From Chloroflexota bacterium (GTDB taxonomy: Bacteria > Chloroflexota > Dehalococcoidia > SM23-28-2 > RBG-16-64-32), in assembly GCA_016190405.1 (NCBI GenBank), contig JACPQO010000124.1, positions 1 through 6,241 of the forward strand: DNA of 6,241 nucleotides, given 5' to 3'. The first letter of the stretch is position 1. Every line of letters starts with the position of its first letter. The notes below the pieces were generated by a model that saw only the letters and a program-made list of their open reading frames with translations, ran no database searches and had not been told where the DNA came from. The position numbers and the translations under genes are program-made. Shown in pieces: positions 2,813 through 6,241 of this stretch.

Positions 2813-3782
2813 GGCCCCCCCTGGCTCTTGCTGACCGGGGAGCCGTGAGGGCGGGCTCCCCGTTATCCTCTTCTTTCTCCTGCTTGTCCTGCTCCGCCGG
2901 CGCCGGCCGTTTGGCCGCCGGCGTCTGGGCCGGCGTGGGAAACAGGAGCTGTCGCCAGCTCAGGGCCCGGCGGCCGTACACGTAGTAGCTGGCGAACAGG
3001 CTGAACACGTTGGAAGCCACCCAGTATACCCCCACCCCACTGGGCAGCGTCAGGGTGATCCAGACCATCATCAGCGGCATCATCCAGGTCATCATCTGCT
3101 GCTGTTGCTGCTGCTGCGCGCTCATGGAAGGCGTCTGTGTGAGCCGCGTCTGCACGTAAGTGGAGATGCCCACCAGCAGGGGCAAGATGAATGTACTGTC
3201 CGCCTTGCCCAGGTTCAGCCACAGGAAGTGCTGGTCCAGGGGCACGTCCCGCGCCAGGAACGACCATGGGTAGAGCCGCCCCGACAGGCCCAGCATGCTC
3301 TCCGGGCTGCCGCCCACCAGATGGACCAGCGCCCGGTACAATGCGATGAAGACGACCATCTGAATGGCCATCGGGACCACACAACCCAGGGGGTTGATGT
3401 TGAACTCCCGGTACAGCTTCAGCATCTCCTCTTGCCGGCGCTTGGGGTCCTTGTACTTCTTCTGGATCTCCTGCATCCTCGGCGAGGCCGCCTGCATGGC
3501 CCGCGTGGACTGCAGCTGCCGCACGGTGAAGGGGATGGTGGCCAGCCGCAGCGCCACGGTGAACACGATGATGGCCACCCCCAACTGGCCGAAGACAAGG
3601 ATGTCCAGGACCACCAGGGCGTTTATGAGGGGGTTGATGAACAGAGTGTTCCAGGGGTCCTGCCCCGAGGCGGCCATGAGGAAGATCGCCAGCGCCACCC
3701 CTACCACGATGGCGAGCGGCATGGCATTGGCCGGGCGCCCTCCTTTGGCGGCGGCTGGGGCGGCAGCGCGACGCTCGCTCAC
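2775..3782 (-). CDS. yidC: Membrane protein insertase YidC/Oxa1/SpoIIIJ family, 335 aa
   Basis: Inserts and folds membrane proteins, alone or with SecYEG. Seen in sequence: an N-terminal hydrophobic segment (about 22-38) without a large periplasmic domain, hence the Gram-positive/organelle-like form; the core TM1 with FTVALRLATIPFT, where Arg79 is the conserved positively charged groove residue; the charged cytoplasmic hairpin (about 88-130) with QLQSTRAMQ and ending in NINPLGC; TM2 about 132-154; and further TM segments at about 196-213, 231-247 and 249-269. An uninterrupted Gln run (223-229, from a CAG/CAA microsatellite at 3096-3116) precedes a Met-rich segment MMTWMMPLMM. The C-terminal tail (about 285-335) is Lys/Arg-rich, a type of tail known in some YidC/Oxa1 proteins to contact the ribosome. 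The start is GTG at 3782, overlapping the upstream TGA as GTGA, with AGGTGAGG as Shine-Dalgarno. No lipobox is visible at the N-terminus. Confidence 0.95.
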   Translation of the reverse strand: MSERRAAAPAAAKGGRPANAMPLAIVVGVALAIFLMAASGQDPWNTLFINPLINALVVLDILVFGQLGVAIIVFTVALRLATIPFTVRQLQSTRAMQAASPRMQEIQKKYKDPKRRQEEMLKLYREFNINPLGCVVPMAIQMVVFIALYRALVHLVGGSPESMLGLSGRLYPWSFLARDVPLDQHFLWLNLGKADSTFILPLLVGISTYVQTRLTQTPSMSAQQQQQQQMMTWMMPLMMVWITLTLPSGVGVYWVASNVFSLFASYYVYGRRALSWRQLLFPTPAQTPAAKRPAPAEQDKQEKEEDNGEPALTAPRSARARGGHGKRRGKRKNRR

Positions 3783-4957
3783 GGCTTCCTCACCTGCACG
3801 GGGCTGCTGACCCCGGCCGCCGGGTCGATGCGGTACAGGTTGCCGCCCTGGGCCACGATGAGCACCTGGTCATCCAGCAGGATGGGATCGGCCAGGACGG
3901 TCTTGGCCAGGATGGCGGGCCCCGACCACTTCAGCGTTCCCGTCGCCGGGTCCAGGCCGTAGACGTTGCCGCTCTTGTCCACCACGATGAGCACGTCCCC
4001 GGCCAGCAACGGCGATGAGCGCACCTGTGCCTCGGCCTTGAAGGGCTGGCCCCACACCGGTTCGCCGGTGGCAACGTCCAGAGCGTATACCTTGCCGTCC
4101 AGGTTGGGGACATAGATTCTGCCGTCCGCCACCAGGGGGCGTCCCCAGAACCAGCTGTCCGCCTTGAAGGCGGGCCATTTCTCCTTCCCGGTCTGCCGGT
4201 CCAGGGCATACAGCCTCTTATCGATGCCGCCCACCAGGAGCGTGTTCACGTCGGCCAGGACGGGATCCATGATCAGACCCGCGTCGGCCTGGAACGGCTT
4301 ATCCCACACCGGCTCCAGGGTCGTCTCGTCCAGCGCGTACAGCTTTCCGTTGACGGAGGACACGTACAGCACGGAGTCCGCCACCAGAGGCGTGGCCCAG
4401 ATGCTGTCCCCGGCGTCGTCGAAGCGGTCCTTCTCGCTCCCGTCCTCGATGTCCAGGGCGTACAGTTTGCCGTCGTCGGAGCCCACGAACAGCCTTGCAC
4501 GCTCGGGATGATCCTTGGGGTCGGGGTCAAACAGCGCCACGCCGCCGATGATGGGCCCGCCTGTGGGGAAGGACCATTTCAGCGACCCGTCCAGAGAGCT
4601 CAGGGCGTACACGTTGCCGTCGTAGGCGCCGAAGTAGACGGTGTCTCTGGTTACAACGGGCGCACCGTATATCGCCTCCAGGTCAAGCCTCTTCCCCTCC
4701 TCAGTATCGGGCGGGAACACCCACTTGGTGGCGAAGTCCGTCGGGTCCAGGGCCGCCATCTTCCCCCGCTGCGTGCTGACGTACAGCGTGCCGTCGGCCA
4801 GTATAGGGCCGGCCCAGCCCTGGGGACGGCTGACCGAGGCACAGCCGGCGGCGATGATGACGAAGGCAGCCAGGACCGCCAGCCACGCCAGAGACCTCGT
4901 CCTGAACCGTGGGCGCGCCAGCCTCAGGCTAATGCCGAACGGATGCCTGGGGCCCAT
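3779..4957 (-). CDS. PQQ-type beta-propeller lipoprotein (BamB-like), 392 aa
   Basis: Predicted exported, lipid-anchored eight-bladed propeller. Seen in sequence: a basic N-terminus, a hydrophobic stretch (residues about 23-38) ending FVIIAAGC, so Cys39 is the likely lipidated residue (Ala at -3 is permitted though less common); then eight repeats of the kind D-x-(V/L)-Y-V-x(4-5)-G-x-(V/L)-YALD-x(2)-TG-x(3)-W, for example around residues 55, 105, 155, 195, 238, 279, 321 and 362. Such repeats build a structural propeller and do not by themselves show PQQ binding or enzyme activity. BamB in Proteobacteria is an outer-membrane assembly lipoprotein; here the gene lies between yidD and yidC and is coupled to yidC by a GTGA overlap, so a role in membrane or cell-surface protein biogenesis is a reasonable inference. 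Start: ATG at 4957 gives a proper signal peptide; a frame open to 5095 would overlap yidD and is rejected. AAGGAGG lies 16 nt upstream, unusually far. Confidence 0.88.
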   Translation of the reverse strand: MGPRHPFGISLRLARPRFRTRSLAWLAVLAAFVIIAAGCASVSRPQGWAGPILADGTLYVSTQRGKMAALDPTDFATKWVFPPDTEEGKRLDLEAIYGAPVVTRDTVYFGAYDGNVYALSSLDGSLKWSFPTGGPIIGGVALFDPDPKDHPERARLFVGSDDGKLYALDIEDGSEKDRFDDAGDSIWATPLVADSVLYVSSVNGKLYALDETTLEPVWDKPFQADAGLIMDPVLADVNTLLVGGIDKRLYALDRQTGKEKWPAFKADSWFWGRPLVADGRIYVPNLDGKVYALDVATGEPVWGQPFKAEAQVRSSPLLAGDVLIVVDKSGNVYGLDPATGTLKWSGPAILAKTVLADPILLDDQVLIVAQGGNLYRIDPAAGVSSPVQVRKP

Positions 4958-5022
4958 CGAGTGGATCGTCTCTCCTCCTTGGTAGCTCTGCCTGCCGGCC
5001 GGACTGTCCCAACGCGCCCGGA

Positions 5023-5232
5023 TCAAGGCACGGGGTCGTAGCCCCCCCGGTTGAACGGGTTGCAGCGGATTAATCGCAAAAGCGTGAGCCAGCACCCCCT
5101 GGCGACACCGTGGCGCTCGATCGCCTCGTAGCCGTAGTGGGAGCAGGTGGGCTGGAACCGACAGGCGGCGGGCCGCGACGGCGACAGGTAGCGCTGATAG
5201 AGCCGGATGAGGCCCAGGGCCAGGCGTTTCAC
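5023..5232 (-). CDS. yidD: Membrane protein insertion efficiency factor YidD, 69 aa
   Basis: Small membrane-associated protein that helps YidC-dependent insertion. Seen in sequence: the amphipathic N-terminus MKRLALGLIRLYQRYLSP, the cysteine core CRFQPTCSHYGYEAIERHG (Cys24 and Cys30), and the C-terminal RCNPFNRGGYDPVP, all hallmarks of the family at normal length. The start is GTG at 5232, overlapping the rnpA stop as GTGA; GAGGAG lies 8 nt upstream inside rnpA. Stop TGA (5025-5023). The 65-nt gap to the next gene is the widest within this operon and carries that gene's Shine-Dalgarno. Confidence 0.95.
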   Translation of the reverse strand: MKRLALGLIRLYQRYLSPSRPAACRFQPTCSHYGYEAIERHGVARGCWLTLLRLIRCNPFNRGGYDPVP

Positions 5233-5613: not shown

Positions 5614-5751
5614 TCAGACAGCGAGCCGCCACCTGCCCTTGAGCGCGCGACGCTTGAGGACTGCCTTGCCCCCCTTGTCGCTGTTCCTGGCCATAAAGCC
5701 ATGACGGCGCTTCCGGCGCAGCTTCTTGGGTTGATACGTCCGCTTGGGCAA
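5614..5751 (-). CDS. rpmH: 50S ribosomal protein L34, 45 aa, TTG start
   Basis: Large-subunit ribosomal protein. Translated directly from the minus strand: the N-terminal residues [18 protein letters not shown] match the nearly invariant L34 start, followed by [20 protein letters not shown] and the tail RWRLAV; more than a third of residues are Lys or Arg. The start codon is TTG (5751-5749), preceded by GGAGG (5762-5758) with 6-nt spacing, which supports initiation there; no ATG or GTG fits. The stop is TGA (5616-5614). Its small size and TTG start make it easy for automatic annotation to miss. It is the first gene of the rnpA-yidD-lipoprotein-yidC-jag train, as in most bacteria, but dnaA is not its divergent neighbour here. 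Confidence 0.96.
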
Positions 5752-5948: not shown

Positions 5949-5954
5949 AAGGAG
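5949..5954 (+). promoter_or_regulatory. Ribosome binding site of the FTR gene (AAGGAG)
   Basis: AAGGAG ends 8 nt before the ATG at 5963. It fixes the start of the recoded gene and shows that the short open stretch before the first in-frame TGA is a genuine translated N-terminus. Confidence 0.8.
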
Positions 5955-5962
5955 CACAGCCC

Positions 5963-6241
5963 ATGCCCAAAGAGGTCACTTTCGAGCGGGCGCTGGAGCG
6001 CGCCCAGCGCATGTCCGAGCGCTACGTGGAGAAGGGGCCCTACGAGTTCTTCCCTTTACCGGAGATCGTAGACGAGGTGCAGCGGGGCCTAGCCAAGAAC
6101 CTGGTCAACTTCGGCCGTCTGTATTGCCCCTGAATGACGCTGTCCGGCGATCCTGATGAGGATCGCAAGAAGATCTGCCCCTGCGAGCGCCACCACGAGG
6201 ACATCGCCCGCGACGGCTTCTGCATCTGAATGTTCTTTGTC
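5963..6241 (+). CDS. ftrB: Ferredoxin:thioredoxin reductase catalytic (beta) subunit, putative selenoprotein with two in-frame TGA codons (3' end outside window)
   Basis: Reduces thioredoxin-like disulfides with electrons from ferredoxin through a [4Fe-4S] cluster and an adjacent redox-active pair. Seen in sequence: 56 codons from ATG with a good Shine-Dalgarno, through the FTR-like segment EKGPYEFFPLPEIVDEVQRGL and NFGRLYCP, then TGA (6131-6133), then in the same frame MTLSGDPDEDRKKICPC and ERHHEDIARDGFCI, a second TGA (6227-6229), then MFFV to the edge. With X for TGA the cysteine pattern is C55-P-X57, C72-P-C74, C87-I-X89. The FTR family has CPC, CPC and CHC; in Synechocystis FTR Cys57 and Cys87 are the redox disulfide and Cys55, 74, 76, 85 bind the cluster. 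The two TGAs therefore replace precisely the redox cysteines. Similarity continues past both TGAs, a SECIS-like hairpin follows the first, and six other genes here use TGA as stop. Selenocysteine is the best reading; a UGA-decoding tRNA-Cys or a pseudogene are alternatives. Confidence 0.85.
6147..6166 (+). promoter_or_regulatory. Candidate bacterial SECIS hairpin for the first TGA of ftrB
   Basis: GCGATCC (6147-6153) and GGATCGC (6160-6166) form a perfect 7-bp stem with the 6-nt loop TGATGA. Twenty bases lie between the TGA and the loop. General bacterial SECIS rules (short stem-loop inside the coding region just after the UGA, loop about 16-37 nt downstream, a G at the first or second loop position) are all met. 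SelB with Sec-tRNA would bind here to decode UGA. The sequence also encodes conserved residues (GDPDEDR), so part of it is under protein constraint. Confidence 0.7.

Follow-up and report, generated by a model that had tools for sequence, protein, structure and literature searches.

Are two in-frame TGA codons in a single ferredoxin:thioredoxin reductase (FTR) gene both read as selenocysteine (Sec)? The question is raised by the 3′ end of a 6,241-nucleotide stretch of Chloroflexota DNA (contig JACPQO010000124.1; hereafter the window), in which a gene for the FTR catalytic subunit begins but is cut by the window end (Table 1). The original prediction described a probable double-selenocysteine FTR. 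We hold with high confidence that the window contains the start of an FTR gene whose two TGAs are predicted Sec codons, each likely helped by its own downstream hairpin; conservation of the TGA pair, selection on the protein, the hairpins and the Sec machinery of the relatives all support the original prediction.

Table 1 Features of the FTR locus, in window coordinates
Feature	Position	Strand	Basis or remark
First 93 codons of the FTR catalytic subunit gene	5963..6241	+	PF02943, NF041072; window end cuts gene
Likely ribosome-binding site AAGGAG, 8 bases 5′ of the ATG	5949..5954	+	Inferred from reading the sequence
TGA 1 in frame (predicted Sec57), in the first CPC motif at its redox-active Cys position	6131..6133	+	
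TGA 2 in frame (predicted Sec89), in the last C-x-C motif at its redox-active Cys position	6227..6229	+	
Four predicted [4Fe-4S] ligand Cys codons	6125-6127, 6176-6178, 6182-6184, 6221-6223	+	Residues 55, 72, 74, 87
SECIS-like hairpin of the first TGA, 8-bp stem, 4-base loop GAUG	6147..6166	+	Folding
Start of the region bearing the second hairpin in relatives	6230..6241	+	Spacing in relatives puts the stem start at 6243, outside the window
rpmH, divergent neighbour, TGA stop	5614..5751	-	

Apart from the TGAs at residues 57 and 89, the frame runs unbroken from its ATG to the window end. When both TGAs were read through, the Pfam model PF02943 (FeThRed_B) spanned residues 11–93 of the 93 residues, across both codons, with an E value of 6.5e-18, in line with the claim that FTR sequence lies before, between and after them. 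Each TGA occupies the last position of its motif, the first CPC or the C-x-C near the C-terminus. These are Cys positions of the family, as had been stated, for Cys stands in both TGA columns in the aligned loci L059, L062 and L063, which come from other phyla. The four remaining motif Cys of the window FTR, which we take from the FTR literature to be the ligands of the [4Fe-4S] cluster, are invariant in a 17-row alignment (A2).

A protein search found 164 relatives, of which 120 were listed. Among those listed, 108 terminate at Cys-Pro directly before the first TGA, two at Cys-Ile directly before the second, and one has Tyr-Tyr-Pro as its C-terminal end; nine reach full length and show Trp at the two TGA positions, which would fit gene callers that translate TGA as Trp. 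Because its predictions are cut at the first TGA or carry Trp in this way, the enzyme is misrepresented in databases. At the DNA level, a scan of the genome collection with the patterns EDRKKICP and C[ED]RHHEDI (which covers relatives carrying at least one of the two) yielded 64 FTR loci, 59 of them from Chloroflexota assemblies titled Dehalococcoidia, SAR202, Chloroflexi or Chloroflexota. Both codons are TGA in all 59 of these loci, and both are TGC or TGT in the five others (three Bacillota, two archaeal). A search of viral contigs found no relative. In the tree, all 59 double-TGA protein rows fall into one clade with support of 100/96, and the window lies within it; its nearest neighbour is L001 (96% identity over 81 columns), and many forks are unsettled because the columns are few.

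These comparisons bear on the possibility that the two stops are real breaks in a decaying gene or sequencing artefacts. The window alone leaves room for this explanation in that its end cuts the gene and hides the true stop, but the same two TGAs recur in every one of the 59 Chloroflexota loci, and dN between the TGAs is 0–0.06 against a dS of 0.24–0.72 when the window is compared with six relatives (L001–L004, L006 and L007), which makes decay or error extremely improbable. Before the first TGA, the same six comparisons gave dN of 0.07–0.16 and dS of 0.46–0.87; after the second, eight pairs of relatives gave dN of 0.01–0.16 and dS of 0.38–1.24. dN is thus far lower than dS in each of the three segments, and purifying selection acts on the protein to either side of each TGA. 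The original judgment that two stops by chance or sequencing error were very unlikely thus holds: a check of the relatives for TGC found TGA at both sites throughout the 59 loci, and a check for decay 3′ of the second TGA found coding sequence that is intact and under selection.

Each TGA is followed by a SECIS-like hairpin. In the window, 21 bases separate the first TGA from the loop of the first hairpin, which has a folding energy of −13.0 kcal/mol, a value that none of 200 shuffles equalled; a 55-nt stretch here has a folding z of −1.9. The stem's seven lower pairs form in 419 of the 434 cells given by the 62 distinct double-TGA sequences, which comprise the 59 Chloroflexota loci, two genomes of the same class and the window; all seven are present in 47 sequences, and at least one is broken in the other 15. 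The second hairpin, at nucleotides 17–33 from the second TGA in the relatives, has a seven-pair stem with a GUU or GUA loop; among 61 sequences, 417 of 427 cells are formed, with all seven pairs in 56 sequences and one or more broken in five. In L124, this hairpin is present with a different sequence and a shifted register. Both stems start at base 17, counting from the U of UGA. The passages of PMC13188914 on bacterial SECIS elements give a set of rules that includes an energy limit of −7.5 kcal/mol; the first hairpin, measured in the window, satisfies them, as does the second, measured in L001, where its −7.7 kcal/mol lies just under the limit. An Rfam search of the window returned no match at E ≤ 1.

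Codon choice within the stems is frozen at Leu CTT (60/60, against a usage of 16%), Ser AGC (57/60; 25%), Phe TTT (49/54; 29%), Gly GGC (59/62; 44%) and Asp GAT (58/62; 41%), while most codons outside the stems vary. Folding of 45-nt stretches compared with synonymous recodings gave a moderate signal, with mean z values of −1.52 for the first hairpin and −1.12 for the second; the natural sequence ranked among the best 5 of 200 in 20 of the 62 sequences for the first hairpin and in 10 of the 61 for the second.

The original prediction had pointed to the Sec machinery as a check, which we ran on relatives. From the 59 Chloroflexota loci, we chose 33 genomes bearing double-TGA loci and drew the line for tRNA-Sec at 60 bits, the next matches, probably other tRNAs, lying below 55. 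Sec machinery is present in most of these genomes: tRNA-Sec exceeds 60 bits in 31, and SelB, SelA and SelD are over the cut-off in 28, 29 and 33, respectively. Absences of Sec genes from some of the 33 likely reflect incomplete assemblies. SelD itself is over the cut-off with one TGA of its own in 32 of the 33 genomes, and ARAGORN called two of the tRNAs tRNA-Sec with anticodon TCA. We also searched 393 genomes from the class that includes G007 (titled Dehalococcoidia). NF041072, the NCBIfam model to which the window protein belongs (see below), is above its cut-off in 25 of them, every one with two TGAs. With a tRNA-Sec threshold of E ≤ 1e-11, 24 of these 25 genomes have tRNA-Sec, compared with 232 of the 368 other genomes of the class (p = 2e-4); G041 is the only one of the 25 without a match. 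Taken at the level of sequence, Sec is very likely at both sites of the window FTR.

A genome-wide reassignment of TGA to Trp, Cys or Gly would instead place an ordinary residue at both positions, and the nine listed relatives predicted with Trp at both look like the output of a caller using another code. TGA is nevertheless a stop in six of the nine window genes checked: jag, yidC, a propeller protein, yidD, rnpA and rpmH, the six genes whose TGA stops had originally been cited against reassignment. The other three genes checked stop at TAA (pfkB) or TAG (a DinB-like gene and an arginase fragment). Moreover, a third TGA lies 52–57 codons past the second in 13 of the 59 loci (L024 has a masked stretch), and at about that place TAA or TAG is found in the majority of the other loci, so the third TGA is likely the stop of the same FTR gene. 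These stops argue against reassignment, which would also leave the hairpins, the frozen codons and the Sec machinery without a role; we regard it as highly improbable. Locus counts, hairpins, frozen codons, dN/dS and TGA stops together led us to reject genome-wide reassignment, gene decay and sequencing error.

The predicted double-Sec enzyme belongs to a family that is already catalogued. Even as a truncated protein, the window product scores 178.7 bits against NCBIfam NF041072 (FtrB_double_U), above the cut-off of 160. NF041072 is an equivalog model named ‘FtrB family double-selenoprotein’; the window protein shares the family and its name-giving double-Sec feature, and we found no difference between the two. 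The FTR passages of a 2008 study of GOS marine metagenomes report two FTR selenoprotein sequences, one of them with Sec at each of the two redox-active Cys (PMC2398784). This sequence, JCVI_READ_1093012271142, has two predicted Sec at the redox-active Cys, as the window does, and a SECIS was predicted there (PMC2398784). Compared with the two sequences, one double-Sec, in those passages, we have 62 distinct double-TGA sequences, a hairpin for each TGA and a check of Sec machinery in relatives. One review lists the FTR family as CxU (PMC9312934), and another lists it as CxU under NF041072, with a 2 that we take as the Sec count (PMC13188914). A double-Sec FTR, which the original prediction had left for a check of the literature, was therefore already reported in 2008 and in NF041072 and is not new: the window gene is a further member of the catalogued family, the kind itself being known by computation. 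A word search of open-licence literature found no experimental study of a double-Sec FTR.

An AlphaFold model of L001, which is 96% identical to the window part, has a mean pLDDT of 79 and matches the solved FTRs 7pwe, 4tpu, 7bzk and 1dj7 (best E 3.3e-7). The catalytic chain of plant and cyanobacterial FTR (1dj7, 2pu9, 7bzk) has the same fold as the L001 model and the same CPC / CPC / CxC order, but has Cys where the double-TGA FTR has predicted Sec; it differs further in its variable partner subunit and photosynthetic electron source, according to the sections of PMC9025218 and PMC3838966 on the plant-type system. The best structural matches are two FTR relatives from outside oxygenic phototrophs, the Methanosarcina acetivorans ferredoxin-dependent disulfide reductase 4tpu (deposited as ‘Rubredoxin’) and the Desulfotalea psychrophila fusion 7pwe, which carries a glutaredoxin domain. 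Unlike the double-TGA FTR, both have Cys in the aligned columns and longer chains.

How might such an enzyme work? In Cys FTR, as the mechanistic section of PMC3838966 describes it, the first electron from ferredoxin leads one active-site sulfur to attack the thioredoxin disulfide and the other to become the fifth ligand of a [4Fe-4S] iron, and the second electron frees the product. Homology suggests that in the double-TGA FTR a Sec-Sec pair likely takes the place of the usual redox disulfide beside the cluster. By analogy with the Cys enzyme, the cluster would receive one electron from ferredoxin; the selenium of one residue, likely Sec89, would become an extra cluster ligand, and that of the other, likely Sec57, would attack a thioredoxin-like partner at its disulfide; a second electron would then release the reduced partner. 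At rest the site would be a diselenide, and the intermediate would have a selenolate bound to the cluster. The division of roles, in which residue 57 attacks and residue 89 binds, is one we assume from structural work on Cys FTR, and it is by the same analogy that we infer the diselenide and the electron path.

Are both Sec residues needed? P0003 and P0004, two of the 120 listed relatives, carry Cys at the first redox site and stop immediately ahead of the second; they may be Cys/Sec forms of the double-TGA family. Further single-TGA FTRs occur in the class. PF02943 matched in 191 of the 393 genomes, and at least 71 distinct genomes have a one-TGA match by hand count among the matches listed; tRNA-Sec is found, among the matches listed, in 63 of these 71 compared with 35 of 65 genomes with Cys forms only. 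Of 50 FTR loci of the class that we inspected (L067–L096 and 20 further stretches), 37 carry a single TGA, which in every case takes the second redox site, the first being Cys; ten more encode Cys at the two sites, another two are of the double-TGA type, and L071 yielded no motif. The single-TGA loci, which lie within L067–L096, L125–L136, L141, L142 and L144 (class of G007), give 35 distinct sequences once L091, which is cut short, and one duplicate are left out, and these form two groups ending CHU (27) and CYU (8). One CHU protein scored 43 bits against NF041072, far below the cut-off, and matched no other NCBIfam model at E ≤ 0.001. On the tree, well-supported branches require the single-TGA state to have changed three times or more, so that on several occasions Sec at the second redox site has been gained or lost. 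The synonymous-recoding signal is weaker in these groups, with mean z values of −0.78 (27 sequences) and −0.64 (8), and −0.17 (6) and +0.91 (3) in the Cys forms of the same groups. The single-TGA FTR match lies about 140–175 bases from the tRNA-Sec gene in five genomes, G272, G281, G292, G383 and G391 (L133–L136 and L141).

The forms with Cys at residue 57, and the two other FTR groups, whose 35 distinct sequences all have their single TGA at the second redox position, might suggest that the second Sec alone matters and that Sec57 is dispensable or freely swapped with Cys. Within the double-TGA family, however, TGA is kept at position 57 in 59 of 59 genome loci and is accompanied by a conserved hairpin, and we consider a dispensable Sec57 very improbable.

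The predicted double-Sec FTR is in part accompanied by a second protein. Upstream of the double-TGA FTR, 28 of 62 loci (between L011 and L116) encode a small protein, about 105 residues long and bearing CxC and MxCxxH motifs, on the FTR strand in 27 of these 28. With a ten-member profile and a threshold of E ≤ 1e-8, it was found in 11 of the 393 class genomes, every one a member of the double-TGA set of 25 (p = 6e-15); it is on a different contig from the FTR in G363, G026 and G041, and two of the 11 matches (G028 and G026) contain an in-frame TAG. That the window's clade carries it as well found no support: the ten genomes nearest to the window, G001–G010, gave no match at E ≤ 1e-8. Three members tried against Pfam gave no match, the weakest hint being E 0.18 in one, and ten members gave no convincing NCBIfam match (best E 0.005, in one). 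Its model is confident (mean pLDDT 87) and matched no PDB fold at E ≤ 0.001. A wider protein search returned 64 relatives, most without a name and those named mainly ‘hypothetical protein’.

The window FTR showed no conserved neighbour, in that no window gene is in the 30 largest neighbour clusters, and blastn of the window against L001–L064 showed the FTR stretch alone to be shared, among the matches listed. The window also holds the gene run rpmH, rnpA, yidD, yidC and jag, with a beta-propeller (PQQ-repeat, BamB-like) protein at 3779–5095 on the minus strand between yidC and yidD.

A wider reading, which we put forward tentatively and as somewhat more doubtful than not, is that FTR of the Dehalococcoidia took up Sec at the cluster-facing redox position more than once, a selenolate in place of a thiolate serving as the extra [4Fe-4S] ligand, and that the double-Sec branch went on to a full diselenide site, part of it, many SAR202 genomes included, having a dedicated small partner protein that turned up in no other of the 393 class genomes. 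An active site with a diselenide beside a [4Fe-4S] cluster would be a rarity. The double-TGA FTR family is conserved in many Chloroflexota assemblies, whose titles include ocean, lake and groundwater samples, and the presence of double-Sec, single-Sec and Cys forms in one class would make the role of selenium in an iron-sulfur disulfide reductase directly testable.
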